From Hypholoma sublateritium FD-334 SS-4 (lineage: Eukaryota; Basidiomycota; Agaricomycetes; Agaricales; Strophariaceae), in assembly GCA_000827495.1 (NCBI GenBank), contig KN817537.1, forward strand, positions 368,360 to 432,359: 64,000 bases of DNA. Reading direction: 5' to 3'. Numbering within the stretch: position 1 is the first letter of the stretch; every line of letters begins with the position of its first letter. Under the pieces are notes generated by a model. It had not been told where the DNA came from. It did not search any database and saw only the letters and a list, made by a program, of their open reading frames with translations. Of the stretch, positions 18,825-34,342 are shown in pieces. A program made the translations under genes and the position numbers.

Positions 18825-19609
18825 ATGAAGGACTGCACCAGCGAGCAACGTCGTCCCAAAATTCGTGTAGCTATCATGTAAGTAGTGTCCATCCTATCTA
18901 AAGGAAAATTGCTAGACTGGATTTTAAAATTAATAGAGGCGCCGGAATTGGAGGCCTATCTCTTTCGGCCGCTTTGGGTGCACTTTCGAACGAGGACAAA
19001 CTAGAAATTAACATTTATGAGAGTGCTTCCGTCATCGCTGAGGTGGGCACCGGCATCTCCCTATGGCCAAGAACGTGGGAAGTAGTCAAGGCCATCAATC
19101 TGGAAAAGAGTCTGCTGCAATTTGTTTCGCAACCTCCTGATAAATCGCCGCGTGGGTACTCATTCTATTTGACTCAACATGATTTTTGATAATTATTCAC
19201 GAAAAGATGTTGTATTTCAAATGCGAAAAGGAGACCAGAAAGAAGGAATTTTCGTCCACAATATACTGATGGAAGGTGAATTTTATGGCTTAGTTATCAC
19301 GCCGATAGTGTATCACCTTTTGGCATAGGCAGGGTTGTCTCGTTCCACAGGGCCGATTTACAGCAGACACTGCTAAATCACGTGTGCGGCTCTTTGCACC
19401 TCAACCATCGTTTCTCGTCGTTCGAGGAGCTCGATGATGAAGTGAACATTCGCTTCGACAATGGCACAACGGCAAAGTGCGATATCTTGATTGGCATGGA
19501 TGGTATCAAGTCAACTCTGCGCAAGAGTGTTCTTCAACAGAATATTCCTTCTTCCGAATCGGTTAATCTAGTATGGTCTGGTACCATGGTGTATCGAGGA
19601 TTGGTTGGG
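18825..19609 (+). pseudogene. FAD-dependent monooxygenase, 5' part, cut by transposon
   Basis: This is the N-terminal part of a salicylate-hydroxylase-like flavoprotein monooxygenase (FAD and NAD(P)H dependent, usually hydroxylating aromatic substrates). Exons are 18825-18877, 18937-19275 and 19329-19609; the introns of 59 and 53 bp are GT-AG. Exon 1 and 2 join to give the FAD-binding VAIIGAGIGGLSLS at residues 15-28. Exon 3 has the FHRADLQQTLLNH segment and the DG motif (LIGMDGIKSTLR). A stop at 19187-19189 comes from one extra T in a T run (GATTTTTGAT); without it the frame reads on through FDNYSRKDVVF. The gene is then interrupted after GGTTGGG at 19609 by the 13.76 kb element and resumes at 33378. 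The substrate is unknown. Confidence 0.85.
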
Positions 19610-19686
19610 CACCTTATTATGTCCCCCCCATGGATAAAAACCCGATAACTACCTGTATGGCCTTATGTATCATCCCCGGTAGTTAC
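19610..19686 (+). repeat. Left terminal inverted repeat of the KDZ element
   Basis: Compared with the reverse complement of 33293-33370, shared blocks in order are CA, ATGGATAAAA, TAACTA, GTAT, ATGTATC and CCCCGGTAGTTA. Each end also holds an internal inverted pair (TAACTACC and GGTAGTTA). Confidence 0.85.
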
Positions 19687-19799
19687 AAGGCCATGGATAG
19701 TATACTTAATACCTGTCAAAGACCTGTAAGTGAGATGCCATCCATAGAATAGCAGGTTCCATCCATACAGCATCCATTGGTTCCGTTGGGCGTGCGAGC

Positions 19800-20130
19800 C
19801 GCACGCGTGCGCACAAACCGGTGCGCTCTGGCGCGTGAATGCCCCTCCGCCTGGTATGGTCAGCCGCTTATAGCGCATAAGATTGGGTTTAACTACAGCA
19901 TGGTTCTTAGAAAGCAGCTCGCACACTAATGGCTCCATTAAAGCGTTAAAATAGACACTGCGGGGACACTCGCACGCGCGCGTTTTACGCGCACGGCCTC
20001 ATTGCTTGCGCGCATTGTAGTGGTATGTCACGCGCTTTGACGCATACGGTTGGGTTTAACTTTGGCGCCTGTCTTGAAAGCAGCGCGCGCTCTAGGGGCT
20101 CCACAAAAATTTTATGTGCACTGCGGGACA
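19800..20130. repeat. ~100 bp direct repeat near the left end
   Basis: Two diverged copies, about 19876-19975 and 20040-20140, share TGGGTTTAACT, GAAAGCAGC, GGCTCCA and CACTGCGGG-ACACT. Noncoding. Confidence 0.6.
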
Positions 20131-20700
20131 CTGGCATCTGACCATCCATGCGGTATCCATAGAACAGTATTATCCATCCATTTATCTATCCATCCATTTG
20201 TGTAATAATAGTATACATACATCCATCGATTATAGAAGCGCACAGCTTGCCTCATCCATCATACTTTCCATCCATGAAAAATCCATTCCATAGAATGCAT
20301 ACATCCATCGCTTATAGAAGCGCACAGCTCAACTTATCCATAGCGTACATAATTTATATCCATTCCTTATTATCCATCCATCCATTTGTGTAATAATAGT
20401 ATACATACATCCATCAATTATAGAAGCGCACAGCCCGCCTCATCCATCGTACTTTCCATCCATGAAATATCCATTCCATAGAATGCATCCATCCATCGCT
20501 TATAGAAGCGCACAGCTCACCTTATCCATAGCGTACATAATTTATATCCATTCCTTAGATTACATCAGGATTAAGCATCCATCGATTATGGATGCGTTGC
20601 AGCGTTATGCACTGATAATACCGAAATTCCATCCATTAACCACTATCCATTGACTATGGATTCATTATCCATCACTCATGCATGCCATTTCGTCGCTGAC
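20130..20700. repeat. Left subterminal CCATCC motif zone with 188 bp tandem repeat
   Basis: It is dense in CCATCCATCC words. A 188 bp unit is present twice (about 20189-20376 and 20377-20565); anchor words are CCATTTGTGTAATAATAG at 20194 and 20382, and TAGCGTAC at 20341 and 20529. Within it TTATAGAAGCGCACAGC occurs four times. The motif strand is opposite to that of the right subterminal zone, as expected for transposase-binding sites that must be mirrored at the two ends. Confidence 0.75.
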
Positions 20701-20990
20701 TTAGTCTAAATATATGTATCCAAAAAACAAGAAATATATTACATCAATTAAACAAATGTGAATATTATGATATACAGACTATTGTCGCAAAATCCAAGAA
20801 GGAAAAGAACGAAGCACCAATTGTACTCTAAAAAAAATCATAACATGCAGAACGAAGCCAGAGCCAAACGCTCCCCAAAAAAGCGAAAAGAAGAATCAAA
20901 TCACGAGAACATCACAATGAATACACGCATACGACGAAGAATTGATGGGCAGTACGAAGAAAAGACGGTATGTTCGAAGAACCACAATAC
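20700..20990. other. AT-rich 3' flank of the companion gene
   Basis: A-rich sequence without a gene; probably 3' UTR and terminator region of the minus-strand companion gene. Confidence 0.4.
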
Positions 20991-23900
20991 TCACATCTTT
21001 TGTTTCTTTCGCCCTCGGCCAGCACCTTGCTCTTTAGGCTTTCGTTTGATTCCTTGGCCCGCATCCAAGAACAACTTCACGCATGCATGAACGTCGTCCA
21101 GCGACGCGTTCCATCGTGCGTCTGTTGTGTGTAGCGGTGCCCACCATGCGAGAGCGATGATGACGAGAATGAACCCAACGGGCCCGGCCTTCTTGATGGG
21201 GTCGAGATTCTCGGATCCTTTCGCCATTGAAAGCGGAACGGGAAGGGAATTTTCGGCAGGAGAGCGGCGCCAGACGGGCTGTACCGAATTCCACCACGTA
21301 ACCCATTCATCAGCAAGCATGGGGAGGTCCGACTCAGAAATTGTCGGTGGGGAATCATATCTACGTTTTCCATTCTGGACCCACGTTGAAAGAATCGCTG
21401 GACGCAATTTTGCTGGCATGCGGTGCTGAAAAGTAAGTCAGATATATACGTAAACATTTACCTAACCAGATAAACATACCGCAGAAGTCTTCGCGTTACC
21501 GAACTGGCGCTCGAACTGCAGAAAATCTTCAATGAAGGGTCGCCACGCAGGTACATTGACCGCATTGCAGAGATACAAGTGACAGGCCTCCGATAACCAC
21601 TTCGGAAAGTGGTCCTCCACGACAGCACGATTGCGCAGGGACCTTGCATTATCTCCGACTAACGGCGCTGTTATCGATGGATGGGGCTCTGGATCGTTTG
21701 AAGAAGGTTGGTGGATAGCTTCGTTCGTAGCCGCCGGATCCGCATCCTCTGCCGCAGGCGTCATACCTGATGGATGGATCTCCTGGGCTGAGTCGGTACA
21801 CGCACCGGTATCCGGCGTCGTATCTGATGGATTGATCTCGGGGGGGGGATCTGCGCTGCCCGATGGATTGGGAGTAGGTTCCAATGGATGGACGCCACGT
21901 AAGTTTTCGATGATACGCCAGGGAGAGGGCGGCGCTGGCACTGGCGCTGCACTTGGTGCTCCCACATCTGTGCTGGAGGTTTGAACGACAGGTGGCGGTG
22001 CATTGGGCGCCGGGGCATTCACTGGGGCTGGTGGTGGTGCGGGAGACGGCGCTACATCCACGGCAGGAGTCTGTACTAGTGCGTTGGGGACCGAGACCGC
22101 TGACAACACTGAGGTACCGTTAGAGATTCCAGCTGGCGGGTTGGGTACTGCGACTGGTGGCGCTGCGAGCGCTCCGGTTGATGACGTCCCGACATTTACG
22201 TCCAAGTTGGGAATTTGACCGACAGCCGATGCAATGGGAGCAGGGGTGGGCGACAGCGCCGGTTCTCTGCCTGATGCTTCTGGGACATGTACGTTGGCTG
22301 AGATAGGGGGGGCGGGGACAAGTACCGCCGCTGGAATTTGGGGCGCTAAATCCGTTTGAGTGCCAGTCAGAGACGCACGAGAACCACCATGCAGAGCGAT
22401 TGAGCCAATCTGTGAGTCGCTCTGAGTAGCCGACGTTGATGGCCGATATCCCGGTGGATGAGAACGACGGGGCGAGGTGTGAGTCGCCGGGAGAGCGGCG
22501 GGAAAATTGTACATCGACGTGGTGTTAAAATCTATTGTGATTGAGGGGTCCCGTTCACGACCCATCATGTACAGGGAATCGATATTGAAATCCATGTTGG
22601 GTCCAACTTGAGTGTTGGCGACGCCGGCACCTGAAGGACCTGCAGCGTTGAAAGTCCAGTTGGGATGGGCTGCCCCTGATATTGACGTCGAGCCGAGACC
22701 TAGAAGGACATAAATAAACTGATTAGCCGCATGAACGAAGTGCCGTTCCTAAGTACATACCATAATTCCAGGTTGCGTCCGTTGTTGGTAGTGATCACCA
22801 GGGGTTACCCAGGGGTCCCATAGACTGTACCCCTACCCCTACCCCCCTCTGACCCTTCCCTAAAACCCCTGGGTAAACCCCAAGAAATTTGCTTAATAAC
22901 ATCCAGAACAAGTGAAAAATCATAAAACTGTTTTAATTACATTGAATTAAACATAGTACATGCAGCTATCATCCATTCCAAGCACTTTGAAGCATGGTTT
23001 CATTATATTTCAAAGTCCAAGGGTACAGAAATGTGGACCCCTACCCCTACCCCTGCTTTACCCCCCCCCCCTATACCCTGGGGGTTTCAAGTACCCCTGG
23101 TGAACACTAGTTGTTGGCGCCGTCGACCAATCAAACATACTGGTCATAAGCGGTGGACCATGAGCAACTGGTGTCGAATATGGACTAAACGTGCGCGCGA
23201 AGTTGTTAGAATAGGGGTCCCCATAATATCCTCCCGACATAGCCATCATATCCGGTCTCAGATGAGCGTTCGCGCCAAGATTGGAGTTTGCGCTGGGATG
23301 AGAAGACATGCTGGACACGAGAAGACCATCTGCCGATGTAGGGGGGACGACATCCAAGGTTAATGCCGGAGTAGTAGGTTCGGAGGAGGTCGTCGCAGAA
23401 GGGGCTTGTTGGTGTTCGCTACTGTGACTATCGTCTTCGTCTTCATCCTCAGAGTCCCTCGGGATGAGTGCACGTGATTTGCATACATCTGGCGCTGAAA
23501 AAAAAACATATGGTCGGTTTAAAGAACATATGGAGACAATGCAACTTGACTTACAGTATATAGTATGAAGATAATCAGAGAACGGCTTGAGCACCGTTTG
23601 CTGGAAGTCGGGAGTGGCCTTTGCATATGACTGACCGTACATATCAACGCAGGAGTGGATGCTCATGGTCGTGATATCGCCGTTCTGGTTGGGATCGGGG
23701 CCTCCACACGAAACCGTAAAGGACCATCCCGTTCTGGCATTCAGCTGAGACAGAAGATTGTGAACGATTTGCGGCATCTTTTCGATCGCGCTAAAAAAAA
23801 GGTAAGCTTTGAAATTGACGTCAGATGAAAGATACTCACAGTGCATATTCCTCCGGAGTTCGCTCAATCACCTCGTCAACACTTTCTCGCTCGCGTTCGA

Positions 23901-24530
23901 GCTCTGCCTTCCTCCTTGCTACCACCTTGCGCACCTCCGCTTTGACTTCATCGCTTTCGTCGTGGTAAGTTGATTCCGTATGTTTCGTAATGATGGCGAT
24001 ACGGCTTTTGGAGTTGTAGAGCGGGTCATTTTGGGCCAATTCTTTAACGCGGTTGGAATAGTGCATCTTCGAATATGCACGCGCCTCGCTCGGAGCACGC
24101 CGCGATGAGGGATTGGCGGTGATGGTAACTTTCGCCGTCTCTCCTGACCGACTACGCTTCCCAACAGGGTGATTATTGAGCCAATTTGTCAATTGCTTGT
24201 AAATTATAAAAACATTAGCACATCGTCATCCACAAATAAAAAAACATTACGTACTGACTGTCGACCTGCAAACCACGCCTCATGGCTGGGAAACAATTCC
24301 GGGAGGCGCTCAGTAATAACATTACCCCTTTTGTCAAAAGTAGGAGGTAGTTCTCTCCATTCGCGCTGCTCGGTCTCTTGGTCCTTCCAGAGGGCAAAAA
24401 AATCGCGACTTAGATTTCCCATCCAGGCCTTTGATGCACCTTTTCCTTTTTTCTTCGCCGCATGAAAATCAACTTTTTTGGAGTTGAGAAATTCCAATTG
24501 CTTCGGCGTCGTCCAACCAGTCGGCGCCAT
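20991..24530 (-). pseudogene. Large KDZ-companion protein, W-rich C-terminus, MITE-disrupted
   Basis: Six exons on the minus strand: 24530-24255, 24195-23840, 23790-23555, 23494-22761 (containing the MITE), 22699-21480 and 21425-20991. All introns (49-61 bp) are GT-AG and in phase. Without the MITE and one 8 bp duplication the frame is open for about 975 residues. The N-terminus (APTGWTTPKQLEFL) and a basic, coiled-coil-like segment (RRKAELERERESVDEV) come first. An acidic stretch and a long Pro/Ala/Ser-rich linker follow. The C-terminus holds WVTWWNSVQPVWR and GPVGFILVIIALAWW, then a lysine-rich end. From memory this C-terminal W-rich motif is common in uncharacterised agaricomycete proteins; function unknown. 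As the DNA stands, the frame stops inside the MITE. Confidence 0.8.
22789..23109. mobile_element. hAT-like MITE, 321 bp
   Basis: Terminal inverted repeats TAGTGATCACCAGGGGT (22789-22805) and, reversed at the right end, TAGTGTTCACCAGGGGT differ by one base. A perfect 8 bp target duplication GTTGTTGG flanks it (22781-22788 and 23110-23117). An 8 bp duplication with TAGTG ends is typical of the hAT superfamily. The inside is rich in CCCCTACCCC next to both ends and AT-rich in the middle, with no coding capacity. It interrupts exon 4 of the companion gene; 329 added bases shift its frame. It is younger than the KDZ insertion or was carried in by it. Confidence 0.9.
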
Positions 24531-25059
24531 AGCCGCCAAAGAACAGGGCGAAGCTCGACAAATGTATCAGAAGGGATCAAAGGATAAAGTCAAGGGATAA
24601 AGTCAAGGGGAAGCCTATCATATGATGGATGCAGGACGCTCCCAGTATCCATTCGCAGCTTGCAATCTTTCATTTGCGAATCCTTGGTGAATCGCTGTCA
24701 ATGAATTACGTCGTAGCCGCAGAGAGCATGGGTTCTAACAGCAAATATCCATTGTGTATGTATCCGTTCGCCTTATCTATCCTTGCCTACCAGACGCCAT
24801 CCATGTTCCATCCATGGAGAGCGCTATATATACAAACTGTATCCATCCGGCCTATGGATCCATACAACATGTTGCAACTCTATTTATACAAACTTAGCTT
24901 CTACCGTAATCTATCCATGGACCCATAGCTCATCCGTCGGCGAGAAGCACTGTGTCATATACCAGATATGCTTCGCGGGCGATTCCAGCATCCATAAATA
25001 CGCCGGTGACAACCCCACAATTCTTCATCACCTAACCTCATCACCCAACCAATATCAAC
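24531..25059. other. Intergenic, GGATGG/CCATCC motifs, divergent promoters
   Basis: It separates the minus-strand companion gene from the plus-strand RNase H1-N gene. It holds a short direct repeat GGATAAAGTCAAGG near 24577-24610 and scattered CCATCCATGG words. A TAAATA-like element near 24994 could serve the plus-strand gene. Confidence 0.45.
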
Positions 25060-25849
25060 ATGGTACAATCCAAACCTGCTGCTGACTCTTCCGCTTCCGC
25101 TTCCCCAGCGCTCCAGGAGCTCCTCACCGCCCTTGTGAATCTTGGAATCAATATCGGCACTAGCACCGGTATGTCACCATTTTTTTACCTCATATTCTCT
25201 CCGGGCCTTGACGTCTAAGCACCGTTCTAGGTGTCGAAGCTGCTCCGGAATGTGAATCCGGCGTCTCTGCTGCATCCGTTGCACCCACTGAGCCTGCTGC
25301 ACCCGCTGACGCTACTGAGGGTAAGTCCAGTCTGATCGTCGTTTGTATTACGTATCTAACATAGTATATCCTGACAGCCGACGACCGCGCCAGCGATGGT
25401 GGAGACACCGAAGATGCTATCGATTCTGCTGGATCTGAGGACGGTCACCTTGCTGCTCAGGGGGATCCGGGTGCTCATGGCTCTCCGCTGGTTACCGATC
25501 CGAACTCTGAAGGCTCCCAGGGCATTATCTGCTCCAGGTGTCGTACTTTCAATGCGGTGCGCTCCGGCAACGACGCGGCGTATGTAGTCACAGTTGGGCT
25601 CCGGGTCGGGGTCTTTACTGAATGGTACGTCCTTTTTTCTATGCATTCGGGATACTGCTCATTTAATTTTACAGGAGTATCGTCCAACCCCTCGTCTCCG
25701 GAGTTCGAGGCGCATGCTACAGGAAGTATAGCACCAACGCTGCTGCACAGACTGCGTTTGCGGAAGCGCTCAATGCGGGTGTTGTCATGGTTGTTTCCCC
25801 AGCGACTCAGCCATTCCAGGGTACTGGACCTTCCCGCTCTTTTCGCTGA
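25060..25849 (+). CDS. Protein with RNase H1 N-terminal (viroplasmin-like) domain
   Basis: Four exons (25060-25168, 25231-25320, 25378-25624, 25675-25849) with in-phase GT-AG introns of 50-62 bp give 206 residues. The N-terminal half is Ala/Ser/acidic and probably disordered. A CxxC (ICSRC) precedes a segment at about residues 134-182 starting YVVTVGLRVGVFTEW and containing GVRGACYRKY. This matches the pattern of the RNase H1 N-terminal hybrid-binding domain, which binds RNA/DNA duplexes. No catalytic RNase H domain follows. As I recall, such stand-alone domains are numerous in agaricomycete genomes. Its place inside the KDZ element suggests a role tied to the element, possibly binding nucleic acid during transposition or transcription; this is inference. 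Confidence 0.8.
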
Positions 25850-25995
25850 ACAGTTCCGTGACTGCGTCTGCCACATGTACAATGTTTGTTAGAATTTGAA
25901 AAAATATACTGCGCCTTGATGTCTCCTCCAATGTGTGAACGCAATGTAGTTTCAATGACAAGCTCCGAGACTGAATCGGTCATTACATTGCCCAA

Positions 25996-26035
25996 GACAA
26001 AAGATTTATGTGCCTTGGAACATAAATCTTTTGTC
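25996..26035. repeat. Perfect 16 bp inverted repeat with 8-base loop
   Basis: Arms GACAAAAGATTTATGT and ACATAAATCTTTTGTC enclose GCCTTGGA. It lies between two convergent genes; the stop codon of the minus-strand gene (26006-26008) is in the left arm. It could form a 3' end hairpin for either transcript or mark a footprint. Confidence 0.85.
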
Positions 26036-26703
26036 AGAATACATAGTAGATACGCCGTTCTTGTCAACGAGATACACACAGAGGATCTCGTCAATCCAAC
26101 CAATGATCATCCGTACATCCTTCATAATTGCAGTAACACTGGCGAGTTCCGGTCCGACACCGGATAGCTGCAGAACTTTGTCGTGGCACTGACTAACTGA
26201 CTTGAGGACAGAGCCCAAGTGCTCGATGGAGGTGTTGAGCGGCTCTGTTTCGTTGCTGATGATGAACTGGCGGCATAGGTGATCCACAAAGATTGCAGGG
26301 GGACCATTTGTGACGGTATGGAGGCGTCGGGCTAAGCGTTTCGCGTGTTCAACCCACGTAGCAAGTGGATCAAACGGCTCAGGGCAGCTGTTTGTTTCCT
26401 TCGCACCGTTGTTGACCTTCGATGGCAAGTCTATGAGCAAATCTGCCTTAGACCTAGACAAGTAATGTCCATGTGAGAACTCTAAGGCGAGTTGAAGATT
26501 AAGAACTCACTTTGTAACCTTCTTACTGTATTGTTTACGCCGTTTCGCATTGATTATATCTTTCACCCTAGTGGAAATGTATTTTATAAGTGAATGTACC
26601 TCGTAGGATGAGTATATACATACTTATCATAGTGCCTCTTGCTTTTCGCACGATTGGCCGCCAGTTTGGCCTCGGGAGTGTGGTAGATACGTTTACGGCC
26701 CAT
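26006..26703 (-). CDS. Basic-region protein, KDZ cargo
   Basis: Three exons (26703-26624, 26567-26511, 26453-26006) with introns of 56 and 57 bp give 194 residues. The N-terminus is strongly basic: MGRKRIYHTPEAKLAANRA, then KSKRHYDK and, after the first intron, INAKRRKQYSKK. From memory this RKR...AANRAKSKR pattern begins many uncharacterised agaricomycete proteins and looks like a DNA-binding basic segment without a leucine zipper. The rest is mixed helical with a hydrophobic segment (GWIDEILCVYLV). No enzyme motif is visible. It converges on the RNase H1-N gene, with 156 bp between stops, and is divergent from the gene at 27182. A role as accessory DNA-binding factor or repressor of the element is a guess. 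Confidence 0.7.
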
Positions 26704-27181
26704 GATGGTAGGTAAGAACTTGCTTAAAGATCGTAATTGACTTCACTCGCTAATATGCATTGTCTAACCTTTATTTCCTTCATCTAAAGTGCCTGTCGTA
26801 ACTATACCCAAAATTGAAGAATAACTCAAAGCCATGATATATAAAATTATTAGCATGTTCATTGACTTTCTATTTGCCAGCGAATTTCTTTTGCTATGAT
26901 AGCTATCATTCAGCTATCATTTAATAAAAGTAGATCATGCACGGACAATGTATCGGCAAGATCGATGTATATTTCAATGGATGTTCGATGGATGGGATCG
27001 AGTTTGGATGGATATGGGATGTATACCACTCCGGTAGTTGGACGTCATCCATTCCTTAATGTAGTTCAATGTATCGGTATCCTTAATTTAAATCCATTGA
27101 ATGGACACATACATTACTCGATACATCAGTTAGATTTTTATATAAAGGACTCATCACAAATTTTAATCCATCATCGCTTCA
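26704..27181. promoter_or_regulatory. Divergent promoter region with palindrome
   Basis: It drives the basic-region gene leftward and the 27182 gene rightward. It contains the perfect palindrome ATGATAGCTATCAT (26896-26909) followed by another GCTATCAT. GGATGG words lie at 26980-27060, and a TATAAA at 27141-27146 is 41 bp before the ATG at 27182. Confidence 0.5.
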
Positions 27182-27788
27182 ATGCCTACCCCCCCTACCC
27201 CCTCCAAAACTCAACTTGACAAGCGCCGCTTCATTCATAGAATGGGGCCCTACTTTCGGCAAGCTCGCGCTGAAGGATTGTCCAGCGAGGCTCAGTTTCT
27301 CAAGGCAATCTGGACTCAATACTGCAATCGCTGGCCCGTCAACGCCCGAGACTATCTCGACCTCGACATCATGCAATCACATATGGATGTCAAAAGACAG
27401 GTAATATATTGCATGAATCCGTTCTTTGGCTACCTTTGTTAACCAATATATCGTACAGGAACTTCACTTGTCTGTTGAGAAGTGGGCTGGCCTTTCGGCT
27501 TTCGAAGCGGAGATGCACTGGTCTCAGCTATTCCACTTCCAGGAAGCTGCAGCGGCCAACACTGGGGAGCACGCCAAACTTGGGTCAAAGGAGAATCCCA
27601 TTGACGTCGTGAGTGCATCTATGTAGTATAAATGACGTTACCAATCTAATCTCTTGCGCAAGGATGGTGCAATCACCCTTCCCCCTCTTCAACCGCGTCC
27701 GCGTCCGCGTCCCCGTCCCCGTGTGCCTTTTTTGACACTGTCCACAGGCACATCCAGTTCCACAAGCGCGTCCGCGGATATCATTTGA
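27182..27788 (+). CDS. Unknown 162-aa... small protein, KDZ cargo (164 codons with stop)
   Basis: Three exons (27182-27400, 27459-27608, 27663-27788) joined by GT-AG introns of 58 and 54 bp make 495 bases, that is 164 residues plus stop. The first part is helical with charged and aromatic residues (HRMGPYFRQARAEGLSS, AIWTQYCNRWP). The second has WAGLSAFEAEMHWSQLFHF. The third is a proline/arginine run (RPRPRPRPR) ending in a Ser/Thr-rich tail. I do not recognise a domain. It lies 264 bp upstream of the transposase on the same strand. Confidence 0.7.
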
Positions 27789-28051
27789 CGTACATTATTA
27801 CTATGTAGATATAGTTTCTAGTAGCTACTATGTCTACTTATATCTCTTGTGTGGTACTCGTACGCTGAATATCCTTGTACACCGAACATCCTTATAAATT
27901 TACTTGTGTATTTGTTGTACCATAGATTTATGCCGAGCATATTTGGTCATGCCGACGTCAATCAATAATTACAGCGCACAAGTTGACCATGGGCATGCCA
28001 GTGCAAGGTGTATTGAATTGTTCACTGCCAACCACAACCATCTACCGTCGA
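27789..28051. promoter_or_regulatory. Likely promoter of the transposase gene
   Basis: An AT-rich spacer with TATAAA at 27893-27898, about 154 bp before the chosen ATG. An in-frame upstream extension (from 27983) exists; the ATG at 28052 (MPPKKGPK) is preferred because the sequence becomes lysine-rich and protein-like there. Confidence 0.4.
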
Positions 28052-31000
28052 ATGCCTCCTAAAAAAGGTCCTAAAATACTGATCGATGTTTTGGAAAAGC
28101 CCAAGGCATCAAAGACAGGCAGCAGGCGCACCGAAGTTCTTGAACGGCATATTGCATATGATGTGACTGGTAGCACAACCACATCGTTCATGCCTGTGCC
28201 TGTTGCTCCTGCAAAACGGCGATCTGGTGGCCTTGCATCTGTGTTAGACGACGACACTGACTCCATTTCAAATATTGAAAGTGCACCACCCCCTCTCACC
28301 GAAGACGAGATTGAGCAAGGAAACGACGAAAGCCGCTTACTCGACTTGGAAGGGCTGGGACACCTGTCTCTTCACGACACGATGCGTACCTCTCGGACAG
28401 GACCAACGCCTGTATCAAAAAAAAAGCGTACTGAGACAGTGAGCCGTCATGATATTTATAATTTATGACATTTTCAGATCTTCTCTTGTTATAGGACAAT
28501 CCCCTCCTTCTATGGGTACCACACATTGACAGTTACCTGGAGGAGTTTCTACGACATGAAGGCCTTTGCGACAGTGATACCACCGTCTGCTCGGAGGACG
28601 GCTGTATCCATCCGGCTAGCTACCGTTGCCGGGACTGTCACGACAACGAACTGTACTGTAAAACTTGCATTGTTATGATACATCAGCGGAATCCCTATCA
28701 TCATCTAAAGGTATACCAGAAAATCTTTCTCCAAGAAGTCTTCAGTTCTAATCAGTATGACTTAGTTCTGGAACGGCTCTTTTTTCGAAGGTGTCACATT
28801 GAAAGCCCTCGGTCTAAAAATACAATTAGGCCATAAAATTGGGAACGCCTGTCCAGCGCCTATTCCGGCGTTCAACGATGACTTCACCATTATTCATGAT
28901 AATGGAATACATCAGGTTTGTCTACTTCTATGTGGCTGCCAAAAGGCCCTTCGGCCGACGATTCAGCTGTTGCGCGCACGGCTCTTCCCCGCAACTACCA
29001 TCAATCCAAGGACTGCGGCAACTTTTCGGGTATTAGAAACCTTTCAGATGCTTAGTTTTACCGCAAAAACAACAGCATTTGACTTTTATAAGGCTTTGGA
29101 GGCTAGGACTGACAATACCGGTACTTCTGTACCGCCAGTGCGTGCACATTTCAAGTTCGTCCAATTTTAATATCTGACCAATTCTATTAATAGGATCGGT
29201 ACCTTGTTCTATTGCGCATAGTCCGTGAATGGCGGCATATTCGACTACTCAAGCGAATGGGCCGAGGGCACTCGAGCACAGGTGTCCGCGGAACTAAAGA
29301 GGGAGAACTGGCAGTACTCTGTCCAGCATGTCCACTTCCAGGCATCAATCTTCCAGTGGACTGGAAGACACGACCTGATTCTGAGCAGTACGTGTGCATG
29401 GTCCCATCACCAACGAAATCTAATCAGATGGTGGCTAAATATAGGTGGCTATATACGCAGTTTGTTGCTATCGACGCAAATTTCCGCTTGAAAAGATTCA
29501 ATGTATCAAGTGGCGAAAGGGACCCTGGGTTGAACCATGGCTATGCGTATATTGTGGAAGAAAAGAAATTCAAACATTACCTCTCAATTTATGACAAGAA
29601 GGTCCACGAGGAGAAGAGTACGTGTCACAACCATGATGCTATCAAATTGGCGCAACAGCGTGGCGGCGCGGGTACTGCCGCCAATGGATCCGGTACGGCA
29701 GAATGTGGGCGACACGATATGAAACGGCCAAATGGAATTGGGGACCTTCAAAAGGGAGAGCGGTAAGACATGATAATCTATTACTATCGATATGTTCTCA
29801 ATATTTTATAGCTACGTTAACATGGACTATTTTCTCTTGTCGAGCTTGAAATTCAACACTCCCTCCCGGCTCGTAGTGTCTTATGACATAGGCTGTCAAT
29901 GGTCACGAAATCTCGCAAGCCGCGTCCAACAGTACCCAACCAATCCGCTGTCAAATAAAGAAATGGATATCACATTCTTGGTTCCAAAATTTCACCTTCC
30001 AGGTCATGTCGACAAATGTCAGACTAATTATTCATTTAACCTTGTTCCCGGTGTCGGACGGACCGACGGCGAGGCTCCAGAACGGGGGTGGGCTGATATC
30101 AATGCGGTTGCTACGAGTACGAAGGAAATGGGACCGGGATCACGCCGCGACACTCTTGATGATCTATTTGGAGCTCGTAACTGGCGCAAGATCACAAATT
30201 ATGGTGTGTTGTATAGCCCTATTAAAAAATTGTTAGCTTACCCAAGCTCACCGTGCAAAGGGCCAACATTTGCTCGAAAGGCCACGGAGGCTTTGGCGGG
30301 CCGGGATGAGCACGTGCACGCCTTCTTAGAATTCGATGCTGCTCTATCCATTAACGCGGGCTCGGAAGATAATGGATCAGAAATACCTATTCAAGAATGG
30401 ACAACATGGTGCCAAACTTGGGAAAAGAACCGAAGCGGGCACAAAAATCCTTTCGAAGTCACCAGAATTGGTACGTGCCTGTTGAGAAACATTGTATTCC
30501 AATAAGTACTGACATATTACGATAGCAATATCTGACAAAGAAGTGCGACTTCGCCTCGCTGAGAAAGATAGCGAAGCTATCACCAGGGGTGACAGACCTG
30601 TGGTTGTTCATGAAGATATTACCCCTAGTGTCCTGATTTATCAGGGGCTAGAGATCGAGGAGCTTCAGTTTGTTCATCACCTTTCTGTCTGAAAAAGAAA
30701 TCTGACATAAATTCAACAGACGGAAATTGGTTGTGGACTCAGCTGCTCTTGGACTCCATTCAACCGATCTTCAACGTGCGAAAATACTCGAGCGATCAAA
30801 TTATCTCCGGCGAAAAATTGAAGCCTGGACAGAAATTCAGCACCTATACCTTCCTGCCGTAGCAACTTTGCGCTCACGAGCAAATAATGAAGGAGGTGGA
30901 TCATTGGCCGTGACCGACATCAAACTTTATCTTCCATCATCCATTCCCTTGACTACGACTTGTGACGCCAGTCTTGTCGACGCAGAATGGGAATTGCGGT

Positions 31001-31796
31001 ATGCAATGGCTGATGTTACCCTCAATTCCCTTCGGTCGCATCTCCTCCTCCGGTCGTGCCTCTACAAATCCAAAGACCGACACGTGCGTGGCCAGGCGCA
31101 GAATACGCGCAGCTACGATCTCATCCATACGGTCGAGGCGCGTATCAAGGCATCAACTCTCAAATATAGAATTGTTCGGATGGCTATGATTGAATTGACG
31201 AAGCGCCGTCGCACCGATAGCCAGTGGGAGTCAATCTACAAACCTCTGAATGACTGCGATATACAAGGACTGTCATCTCTCGATGACGATGGGGCTGAAG
31301 GACACAAGTCGCTGTCATGGATATGGAAAATATACGGCACAGGACAGACAGATATTGACAGCGGAACACAAGATGGTACGTCATTAGATTTATTTTTAGA
31401 ACGTAATTATTAAACCTTAACAAAGCACTGCGCATTGAGTGGTGCCGCGCTCGCGCTCGCGCTCATAGATGGCAAGAAGAGTGTCTCTTGCTGGCTGAAG
31501 AAATGAGGCGCATCAAAGAATACTTCAAGACGAAAACAGAGTGGTGGACAAATTTAGCATTAGATCCCCCGATGATCGAAGATTTCGACCGATCAAAGGT
31601 TCTTTCCCCGGCACTCCAAGCCATCTATAATGAAAGAAACCGGAGCATCGTAGATGGAAAGAGATCGTATGCGCTTCGCCAAGCTGACATTCAAGAACGT
31701 ATGTCTAGGATGTGTCAACAAGAATGGGAGGGTTTGTCGGAGAAACTTTTGACGATGGGAAATAGAGATGCTACAGTGATGGTAGAGCACGAGTAG
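28052..31796 (+). CDS. KDZ transposase with CxC2-type cysteine cluster, intact
   Basis: The transposase that should mobilise the 13.76 kb element. Nine exons: 28052-28438, 28495-28710, 28766-29137, 29194-29387, 29445-29762, 29812-30470, 30526-30667, 30720-31375, 31426-31796. All eight introns (49-57 bp) are GT-AG and every phase closes, giving 1104 residues without a stop. Residues ~155-195 carry the zinc-ligand cluster (VCSEDGC, RCRDC, YCKTC, then His). FWNGSFFEGVTLKALGL and a QLGH segment follow, as in CxC2-type KDZ proteins. The RNase H-like core shows AIDANFRLKR (D400), SYDIGCQW (D521) and RTDGEAPERGWAD (E583 or E586), the expected acidic triad. A C-terminal helical region follows (RARARAHRWQEE near residue 990). 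With all motifs kept it may be active. Confidence 0.9.
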
Positions 31797-31859
31797 ACAT
31801 TACATTTGGTAAATATATACATTTTAGTGTTAGTAATACTCTACGCCACACCTTACTAT

Positions 31860-33290
31860 ACCAAGATGCCTAATGTATACGTGAATGGTTAGCGGCAAAT
31901 CGATGGACCATGCAGAGCGCGGCAGCTGCTGTGGGCGCCGCGGCATGGATGGATCCGGTACACCTGGGAGAAGCGAATGGATGGTCGATGCATGCGTGCA
32001 TGGATAGAAAGGTGGACGCAAATGGATGGATAGCGGGGTGCGGCGTCGAAGCGGAGGGATGCCGCGGCATGGCCGGTGCGGCATCCCCCTATGCCAATGG
32101 ATGGCTGATGTATGCGTCAATGGATGGCCGTGAATGGATAGCTGATGTATGGGGCCGCGTCGAGTCTAATGGATGTGGTAATGGATGTGGCATGGATGGC
32201 GCGGCGGTAGTGTGGCGCGTCCGGNNNNNNNNNNNNNNNNNNNNNNNNNNNNNNNNNNNNNNNNNNNNNNNNNNNNNNNNNNNNNNNNNNNNNNNNNNNN
32301 NNNNNNNNNNNNNNNNNNNNNNNNNNNNNNNNNNNNNNNNNNNNNNNNNNNNNNNNNNNNNNNNNNNNNNNNNNNNNNNNNNNNNNNNNNNNNNNNNNNN
32401 NNNNNNNNNNNNNNNNNNNNNNNNNNNNNNNNNNNNNNNNNNNNNNNNNNNNNNNNNNNNNNNNNNNNNNNNNNNNNNNGCGATAATGGATAGCTGATGT
32501 ATGGGGCCGCGTCAAAGCGAATGGATGGAGGGCGCGGTCCGGCAGCTACCCGCCATGTCGATGGATGTCGAATGGATGTGGCATGGATGGCGCGGNGGTA
32601 GTGTGGCGCGCCCGGAAGCTACCCGCCATGTCGATGGATGGCCAATGGATGTGGCATGGATGGCGCGACGATAGCGTGGAACGTGCAGCATGGATGATGG
32701 ACATGCAATGGATGGTGAATACATATGCTGGATGGATATTGTATGCAAATCGTATGTATACGGCCCGGGGCGGCGATTTGGGCCGGGATATGGAAGGCCG
32801 GGCCGCTGCGTGAAAATCAACAGGAAGTCAGTATAGTTACTACATAATGGCATACGTATACCATGGCACGTCCTCTTAAATTATACAGTGTAATTAAATA
32901 CAGTACGAGGTGAATATAATGGCAATAATGAGCGCAACGTGACAACAACGATCAGCGCACGTAGAACTACAGGACGTACTGGCACACCCGTGGCGGGGAG
33001 CTTGCGCACGGCATATATCCCGATGGATAGAGCGGCGGCCAGTTCCGGATTCACAGCTGAGCTGATGGATCAAGAAGCTGATGGATCAAGACCACAGTAA
33101 GATAGATGATTGCATGCATTGATGATGGATACACTATACAAGGGTATGGATGGATCATGTAGTTTAATACATTGAATCTATGGATGTGTTCTATTCGCAT
33201 GGATAGATTATCAGAGATAATACATCGCTCCTATGGATAGACTACGAGTTAATGTATCGTTCAATGGTTCATAATGGGCATTTGACAGCA
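31860..33290. repeat. Right subterminal GGATGG motif zone and minisatellite
   Basis: It is dense in ATGGATGG words, the reverse orientation of the left zone. It includes a minisatellite whose units share GGCATGGATGGCGCGGCGG and AGCTACCCGCCATG; two neighbouring 73 bp units start at 32558 and 32631, with related sequence at 32160-32224 before the gap. The apparent long frames here are produced by the repeat and by Ns. Confidence 0.75.
32225..32479. other. Assembly gap, 255 Ns
   Basis: The gap lies inside the GGATGG minisatellite, so the real repeat length, and with it the element length, is unknown. Confidence 0.95.
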
Positions 33291-33292
33291 GC

Positions 33293-33370
33293 GTTAACTA
33301 CCGGGGCGGATACATCATCCTATACCCGTTAGTTACCGCGTTTTATCCATCGAAGCTACAGCATTGCCTG
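33293..33370 (-). repeat. Right terminal inverted repeat of the KDZ element
   Basis: See the left repeat. Outermost bases are ...GCCTG against CACC... at the left; the outermost 15 bases are less well matched than the inner blocks. Confidence 0.85.
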
Positions 33371-33377
33371 GGTTGGG

Positions 33378-34342
33378 AGGGATGCGCTTGAGAACGAATT
33401 TCCCGGGCATCGTACTATTACTATGCCTATGATGGTGAGCTGTTATGCTCATGGATAATAATGATACTGAGGTTTGTGTTCATTCAGTACATAGGCAAAC
33501 ACAAGGTGAGAGGTTTCATTAAAATTTACAGCAGTTTTATGGAGAAATCCTTACAGCATGTTGTTGCGTATCCGGTGTCCCGCAGCTTGATAACCGTGTC
33601 GGCTTATATCAGCGATGTGTCTAAGGAAGGTACTCCTTGCGGCGAAATTACTGCCTTCAGTCCTATCGTCAAAGAAGAGCTCCTGGCCGCCTTCACAGGC
33701 TGGGAGCCAGAAGTTCAAGTCTTGTTACGTGTACGTACCATTATAGGGATGTGCACCTCAGCAGCATGCTCAAATAAATTATTATCCTGAAGTCCATGAA
33801 TGAGCCAATGAAACTGCCGATAACTCGAGTCGTTCCGCTGGAACGCTACTCATTTGGGAGGGTGCTGATAGCAGGTGATGCAGTATGTATCTCAATTAGT
33901 TCATTTATTTGCGCAATTCTTTTACAACGCAGGCACACGGAATGCCTCCGCATCAAGGCGCAGGTGCTGGTCAAGCAATTGAGGTCAGTATATAATTCGG
34001 AATCTCACGCGACAGAATTTAATCATATCTGGATAGGACGCGTACATCTTAGCAAGCCTATTATGTCATACATCTAGTACACGGGAGTCAATCCCCAAGA
34101 TCGCAAAGATATACAACGACATACGCCGTCCCGAGGGAAATCGTGCCCTCCAAGCTTCCATCGAGTTCGGAAGGCTGTTGGATTTGGACTTTCCAGACTT
34201 GGAAGGATACAAAGAGGGCGACGATAGCATGCCCTTAGAAATTTTGGAAGCATTGGGGAGGAAAGCTAGTAAGGACCTGGAGTGGGTATGGAAAAATTCC
34301 GTTGAAGGAGACAAGCGCCGCGCTTTACATATGATGGATTAA
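33378..34342 (+). pseudogene. FAD-dependent monooxygenase, 3' part
   Basis: It continues the gene interrupted at 19609. Exons are 33378-33434, 33488-33505, 33557-33730, 33793-33882, 33933-33983 and 34037-34342; the introns of 50-62 bp are GT-AG and all in phase 0. It encodes RDALENEFPGHRT, then YIGKHK-HVVAYPVSRS, the second FAD motif split over an intron (RVLIAGDA | AHGMPPHQGAGAGQAIE), and the C-terminus ending KRRALHMMD. With the 5' part (one T removed) the protein would be 455 residues, normal for group A aromatic hydroxylases. Apart from the frameshift in exon 2 and the transposon I find no other defect, so inactivation appears recent. Alone, this part has no promoter or FAD-binding N-terminus. 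Confidence 0.88.

Follow-up and report, generated by a model that had tools for sequence, protein, structure and literature searches.

Insertion of a KDZ element in a flavin monooxygenase gene

The window analyzed here is a 64,000-bp stretch of the Hypholoma sublateritium FD-334 SS-4 genome (assembly GCA_000827495.1, contig KN817537.1, positions 368,360–432,359 of the forward strand). It includes a flavin monooxygenase gene whose two halves flank a large DNA transposon. The 5′ part of the gene (18825–19602, plus strand, from a putative ATG) was identified by alignment to uninterrupted paralogues and by a FAD_binding_3 match, and the 3′ part (33378–34342, plus strand) by paralogue alignment. 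The intervening element (19610–33370, plus strand) spans 13,761 bp, begins with CACC, terminates with CCTG, and is bounded by two copies of the heptamer GGTTGGG (19603–19609 and 33371–33377, plus strand). Its exact length is not fixed because a gap of 255 N (32225–32479) and a single N at 32596 lie inside it. The element carries five genes, here termed A, B, C, D and KDZ, the last of which encodes a KDZ transposase, and its features fit the Kyakuja type of KDZ transposon.

The two 82-base ends of the element form imperfect terminal inverted repeats (TIRs; 19610–19691, plus strand, and 33289–33370, minus strand) in which 57 of 79 aligned columns are identical. The alignment score is 74, whereas 1000 mononucleotide shuffles gave a mean of 9.1 (standard deviation 6.7) and reached 36 at most. 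When the genome (46.1 Mb in 281 contigs) was searched with the element ends, two further two-ended copies were recovered, on contigs C34 (2315 bp) and C191 (2379 bp). Both terminate at the same CACC and CCTG bases as the window element and possess their own 7-bp duplications, GCATGTA and GTTGATA, respectively. As these copies end at the same bases beside different duplications, the boundaries of the window element are independent of the gene split. A right-end-only copy of the window family on C189 (39040–39125), with a fragment of gene C and with 23 ATGGAT and three ATCCAT motifs in 9 kb, was kept outside the element counts.

The FAD_binding_3 domain scored under the Pfam cut-off on one exon of the split gene (E 0.0033) and above it on the model of the paralogue on C131 (E 5.1e-7). 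A DNA search with the 169 bases to the left of the insertion identified paralogues without the element on C115 (83%) and C131 (79%). Both have an empty site that is uninterrupted across the insertion point, reading RGLVERDVLDKQF in C115 and RGLVGRDVLDKEF in C131. The two sides of the host gene align to these paralogues over most of the gene, and the stop codons that appear in these alignments are located in sequence read as introns. The insertion is suggested to be recent, and the paralogue alignments give no date for it. The initial annotation of the window had placed the element in a monooxygenase exon, had set its ends to within a base or two, with a GGTTGGG duplication and imperfect inverted repeats of 77–78 bp, and had proposed that its removal would rejoin the reading frame (LVG|RDALENEF). 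These assignments are borne out by the repeat alignment, by the ends and duplications of the two further copies, and by the domain match and read-through of the paralogues.

The gap near the right end might be taken as a sign that the gene was split artificially by a misassembly that joined its halves across unrelated repeats. However, both ends match independent copies base for base, each copy having its own 7-bp duplication, and an array of short motifs at the right end runs on across the gap, with 12 motifs before and 21 after it. An assembly error is thus exceedingly improbable, and was rejected as the origin of the split gene.

The transposase and other genes of the element

The KDZ gene (28052–31796, plus strand) comprises eight exons with an open frame that specifies a predicted protein of 1123 amino acids. 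Its exons match the KDZ domain (PF18758) with E values of 5.2e-18 and 1.2e-40 (66 and 140 bits, respectively, against a cut-off of 26.6), and a CxC2 cysteine cluster is located ahead of this domain on a separate exon (E 1.2e-42). Residues D419, D540, and E605 presumably are catalytic. No Pfam family besides KDZ and CxC2 was above cut-off on the transposase exons, a CACTA-type transposase included. A KDZ element with several genes had been described in the initial annotation, which stands, as does an intact transposase frame, although with a length of 1104 residues that is replaced by the 1123-residue model. Introns were placed manually and then checked in genes B, C, D, and KDZ, and those of B and C were verified additionally by identity to deposited proteins.

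Gene A (20991–24530, minus strand) was assigned exons at 24530–24255, 24195–23840, 23790–23555, and from 23494 on, and has a homologue in a second element on contig C93 that is described below. The 3′ part of the gene lies in open frames at 22748–21462 and 21437–20991, where no exon limits were set. One of the gene A exons contains a nested element of 321 bp (22789–23109) with inverted repeats TAGTG(A/T)TCACCAGGGGT and an 8-bp duplication, GTTGTTGG (22781–22788 and 23110–23117), so that the insertion with its duplication occupies 22781–23117. The nested element matched only itself in the genome; we take it to resemble a hAT-type miniature element. An automatic gene A model that read across this insertion was discarded. 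As gene A is broken, the window copy perhaps is not fully autonomous and may now depend on products supplied from elsewhere. The element had been called complete and possibly active. Both descriptions go too far for the copy at hand, given the interruption of gene A and the 255 unread bases close to its right end.

Gene B (25060–25849, plus strand; exons 25060–25168, 25231–25320, 25378–25624, and 25675–25849) encodes a 206-residue protein identical to HYPSUDRAFT_53781 of H. sublateritium FD-334 SS-4. The protein possesses an RNase H1 N-terminal hybrid-binding domain (Cauli_VI, PF01693; E 1.3e-10), and the Pfam search revealed no nuclease domain and no other family. Residues Y135 and W149 and the stretch G-A-C-(Y/F)-R-K-Y are conserved in all five aligned proteins, the query included. 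The sole PDB match, to the yeast-type RNase HI 1qhk, was weak (E 0.13). A six-frame search of the genome for Cauli_VI returned a single locus, on C4, and missed gene B itself; as the domain of B is split by an intron, the search is uninformative about the frequency of the gene. A match resembling gene B is located at the start of contig C114 (668–802), on which there is no KDZ match.

Gene C (26006–26703, minus strand; exons 26703–26624, 26567–26511, and 26453–26006) specifies 194 residues and is identical to the deposited HYPSUDRAFT_200647. Its basic N-terminus is conserved, with residues 16–26 invariant in the four aligned proteins. No Pfam family was above cut-off for this protein, and the best PDB match had an E value of 0.19. 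Homologues of gene C are known from Pholiota molesta and Flammula alnicola, and homologues of gene B from Ephemerocybe angulata. Gene D (27182–27788, plus strand; exons 27182–27400, 27459–27608, and 27663–27788), a gene model of 164 residues, produced neither a Pfam nor a PDB match.

A second element with the same five genes

In whole-genome protein searches, genes A, B, C, and D were found together only at the window locus and on C93, among the matches listed. The C93 element (87044–105491) is 18.4 kb with 6,946 N inside, and has CACC…CCTG ends, the duplication GAATGTG, and an inverted repeat of 72 bp at 97.2% identity that starts 10 bases in. Its genes have the same order and orientation as those of the window element: A minus, B plus, C minus, D plus, and KDZ plus. 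The proteins of the two elements are 34% (D), 35 and 42% (A), 42% (C), and 45% (B) identical in local alignments. The transposases share 40–61% identity over their main stretches and 82% over one short stretch, the C93 match ending at residue 861 of 1123 just ahead of an N run. The counterpart of gene A in C93 is a deposited protein of 997 residues that is 98% identical to the 1014-residue model made here. The cargo genes therefore recur together between such ends elsewhere in the genome, contrary to a doubt raised in the initial annotation.

The KDZ domain produced 68 matches in the genome which were grouped by hand into about 40 places. The window, C93, C144, C143, and C84 were read at length for gene content, and eight more were read as short loci. 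Subsets of the accessory genes occur at other KDZ loci: C143 and C84 both have gene C and, weakly, gene D next to a distant KDZ transposase, arranged as KDZ, D, C, and C144 has gene A. No homologue of gene B was detected on C144 by tblastn, by motif pattern, or by Pfam analysis of a 406-residue frame. When matches with E values up to 0.001 were assessed for a KDZ match within 6 kb, with the window locus counted and the best candidates listed, this was the case at three of three places for gene A, two of three for B, four of six for C, and two of two for D, among the matches listed. The other two places for gene C were the short element on C34 and, on C15, a fragment of 31 residues. Genes A to D thus tend to travel with KDZ transposases. 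Separately, KDZ loci at C37 (134505–135145) and C173 (27303–27943) have equal scores and spacing, and may have arisen by very recent copying or by duplication in the assembly.

Genes A to D look like resident genes of the transposon because the five-gene block of C93 is co-linear with that of the window element, with orientations unchanged, at about 34–61% protein identity. They might alternatively be host genes that were carried along as passengers and have no connection with transposition: a recognized transposition domain is present in the transposase alone, and B resembles a domain of cellular RNase H1. The conserved block in C93 and the proximity of most matches to KDZ matches argue against this explanation, which is improbable; captured host genes are made unlikely by the synteny in particular.

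A role in defense against silencing can be envisaged for resident gene B, although it is doubtful. The protein would conceal transcripts or R-loops of the element from RNA- or methylation-based silencing, and so would take a part like that proposed for TET/JBP proteins in other Kyakuja elements. The caulimovirus P6 protein, which bears the PF01693 domain, suppresses RNA silencing. The domain match and the conserved residues of B are consistent with such a role, whereas the weakness of its only structural match speaks against it. TET/JBP proteins have been read as anti-silencing cargo, as far as the account in PMC12730594 extends. The TET/JBP family (PF12851) has nine matches in the genome, two of which are above cut-off, and none is on C20 or C93, although a divergent type or one in the N gap of C93 could escape. 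TET/JBP cargo was rejected on this basis for the window and C93 elements. A KDZ match at C41 (275685–276269) and a TET/JBP match under cut-off (279402–279746) are ~3 kb apart, and possibly belong to one TET-positive KDZ element.

Short elements retain the ends and one internal segment

A search with the C93 end produced 25 genome matches, of which 20 pair into ten short elements, two are the C93 element itself, and three (C135, C26, and C64) are one-ended and were kept outside the analysis. The ten elements are 2.06–3.06 kb in length, the longest (C18b) containing an N run of 904. Nine of them have CACC…CCTG ends with a 7-bp duplication, and in C16 the right end is altered. For C42, C65, and C24 the script returned 8 bp, as the left copy is preceded in them by a base identical to the terminal G.

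In each of the 12 short elements (these ten plus C34 and C191), three parts match the autonomous partner: the left end, the right end, and one internal segment (E 1e-6, >100 bp per 500-bp bin). The retained segment combines the C|D intergenic region with the 5′ part of gene C. In the C93 family this comparison is limited to the sequenced portion of C93, and further matches could lie in its 6.9-kb gap. Some stretches of the short elements have no match in either autonomous partner. None of the 12 has a full-length gene C, and five have in common a stop at codon 5. Among the ten C93-type elements the segment is oriented one way in five and the other way in five.

A tree of the segment, which needs two changes, separates C34 and C191, placed with the window element, from the remaining ten, placed with C93, with 100/100 support for each grouping. 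As the short elements group with their own partners, at least two origins have kept the same piece, unless gene conversion homogenized the copies. Descent of all short elements from one ancient origin accordingly is not favored, with the proviso that gene conversion could mimic the tree. The start of gene C with the C|D promoter is a possible internal requirement in cis. C34 and C191 are 76–83% identical to each other. C18b and C32b occupy separate sites and share 99.9% identity over 1814 bp; the value was not used as a date because both have N at the same positions, and part of the identity perhaps derives from assembly.

Subterminal arrays of ATGGA-core motifs

The subterminal regions of the window element are densely populated by the motif ATGGAT, or ATCCAT in the opposite polarity. 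The left region (19610–20980, plus strand) has 31 ATCCAT and four ATGGAT motifs, and includes a 188-bp tandem duplication (20171–20557). The right region (31797–33370, plus strand), which contains the 255-N gap, has one ATCCAT and 32 ATGGAT motifs. The totals of 35 motifs in 1371 bp and 33 in 1318 read bases correspond to 25 per kb, whereas the two flanks have 0.66 and 0.72 per kb. In dinucleotide shuffles (200 per region) the left region averaged 2.1 motifs with a maximum of 8, and the two right pieces had maxima of 5 and 6. The polarity recurs in C34 and C191, in which the first 800 bases have ATGGAT:ATCCAT ratios of 4:11 and 4:10, respectively, and the last 900 bases a ratio of 16:2 in both.

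Motifs also are present in the two divergent intergenic regions, A|B (24531–25059, 529 bp), which has ten against a shuffle maximum of four, and C|D (26704–27181, 478 bp), which has six against a maximum of four and is part of the segment kept in the 12 short elements. No motifs are located in B, C, or the 5′ part of gene A, and one each is in D and the nested element. In the C93 family the related motif ATGGAA occurs at 7.0–18.3 per kb (background 0.58) and ATGGAT at 0.9–6.1 per kb (background 0.70). Conversely, ATGGAA is at 0 and 0.4 per kb in C34 and C191, and at 4.4 and 0.8 per kb in the ends of the window element. The ATGGA core is common to the two families. ATGGAT arrays were rejected as a general feature of KDZ elements on the basis of three further KDZ loci, as the stretches on C144, C143, and C84 have 0.3–0.9 motifs per kb, like the host flanks.

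The arrays might have grown passively as satellites in unconstrained DNA and not be binding sites. This is an unlikely explanation that nevertheless carries some weight: the arrays include the 188-bp tandem duplication and shorter tandem repeats, and the C93 family lacks mirror polarity. Against passive growth, the mirror polarity of the window element is repeated in C34 and C191 despite their divergence from each other, the core is enriched in the C93 family also with one base changed, and motifs recur in both divergent promoters.

Classification and a model for transposition

The KDZ domain and the CxC cluster that precedes it place the window element in the KDZ superfamily. CACC…CCTG ends with a 7-bp duplication are present in 13 of the 14 two-ended elements (the window element, C34, C191, C93, and the ten short C93-type elements), the exception being C16. 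As described in the available account, Kyakuja elements have 7-bp duplications and CA..TG termini, whereas the duplications of Zisupton and a Dileera family are 8 bp (Kojima, 2025, PMC12730594). By termini and duplication, as compared with this description, the elements fit Kyakuja within the KDZ lineage.

Overall, we consider it likely, with a probability of roughly 0.8, that the window harbors a Kyakuja-type cut-and-paste KDZ transposon with five resident genes that entered the monooxygenase exon once, and that its ends may be bound in the manner outlined here. The sequence basis of this reading consists of the ends, the duplication, the empty-site paralogues, the open KDZ frame, the second five-gene block, and the short elements. 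A single insertion event in the exon would have duplicated 7 bp. The KDZ transposase would cut at the CACC and CCTG termini and join the element to targets with a 7-bp stagger. One or more of the accessory proteins A, C, or D may bind the ATGGA-core motif at its subterminal sites and in both divergent promoters. Such binding could both pair the ends and regulate the genes of the element, like TnpA of Spm/En. Short elements devoid of the transposase would be mobilized in trans by the same proteins.

Several observations weigh against parts of this interpretation. A, C, and D have no Pfam family above cut-off and the PDB sequence search provided no usable relative; the MerR DNA-binding match on gene A was only 11.9 bits against a cut-off of 25.4. 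The left array partly reflects the 188-bp tandem duplication, 24 motifs remaining without one unit. Motifs also occur in the 3′ part of gene A (seven in 1790 bp) and in the KDZ gene (eight, inside its shuffle range). Mirror polarity was not found in the C93 family, in which ATGGAA is mostly one-way in both halves, and a simple uniform model thereby is weakened. Finally, Kyakuja-1_LB and Kyakuja-2_LB are described without TIRs in the account available (PMC12730594), whereas TIRs are present in both the window element (score of 74 against a shuffle maximum of 36) and the C93 element (72 bp at 97.2%).

A bolder version of the Kyakuja model, which is speculative and unlikely to hold as a whole, would have five functional components. 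An accessory protein would read an ATGGA-core code that switches from T to A between subfamilies together with the proteins; the start of gene C and the C|D promoter would be required in cis even where the frame is dead; and B would act as a hybrid-binding anti-silencing protein in place of TET/JBP.

The portion of the literature covered did not explain how KDZ ends are recognized or what functions the other genes of large mushroom transposons serve. Two co-linear elements, 12 short elements, and a one-base difference in motif offer a concrete candidate for a recognition code, candidate binding proteins, and ready substrates. The nuclease-less hybrid-binding protein B is a candidate for a second route, besides TET/JBP, by which fungal transposons might escape silencing.

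Relationship to known elements

Among the top-ranked titles and abstract openings on KDZ and Kyakuja elements, subterminal repeats, RNase H1 N-terminal domains in fungal elements, and Hypholoma transposons, neither the five-gene block nor the ATGGA arrays were described, which is weak evidence of novelty. The initial annotation had considered precisely bounded KDZ elements with several cargo genes an uncommon find in raw sequence. This may be true of such a sighting but does not extend to the type of element, as full-length KDZ elements with target duplications have been published (PMC12730594, PMC12810828). Intact KDZ transposons of Pleurotus are reported to be all preceded by CxC2 (PMC7641404), and for Marasmius oreades there are a characterization of KDZ TIR motifs (PMC8290104) and a report of variation in the load of Dileera (PMC9674265).

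The closest parallels are Kyakuja-1_LB and Kyakuja-2_LB of Laccaria bicolor which, as far as their description goes, likewise have a KDZ-group transposase, a 7-bp duplication, CA..TG termini, and an extra gene inside (PMC12730594). The Laccaria elements differ in having TET/JBP and no TIRs, whereas those studied here have TIRs, no TET/JBP match, and four other genes that include one with an RNase H1 hybrid-binding domain. Zisupton and Dileera also belong to the KDZ transposase group, and are set apart by 8-bp duplications (PMC12730594). KDZ1, KDZ2, and KDZ3 of Cryptococcus neoformans similarly are KDZ elements with TIRs that insert in genes, and are 9–11 kb in length (PMC12810828). According to the same account, however, their duplications are 8 bp (KDZ1) or 4–8 bp (KDZ2 and KDZ3), the cysteine cluster is CxC1 and not CxC2, and the TIRs are longer at 139–241 bp. 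Moreover, KDZ mobility was demonstrated experimentally in C. neoformans (PMC12810828), whereas that of the Hypholoma elements is deduced from sequence.

Spm/En and other CACTA elements resemble the present elements in their subterminal arrays of short motifs that diverge by subfamily, and in deletion derivatives that keep the ends (PMC2613891). The subterminal repeats of Spm/En are bound by TnpA, an accessory DNA-binding protein whose counterpart here is putative, and the CACTA elements differ in having another transposase and a 3-bp duplication in place of the KDZ transposase and 7 bp, as set out in that source (PMC2613891). Set beside these systems, the mechanism is apparently the ordinary one of KDZ insertion, and what appears to be new is the conserved five-gene block, the subfamily-specific subterminal motif, the shared internal piece, and the nuclease-less hybrid-binding cargo.

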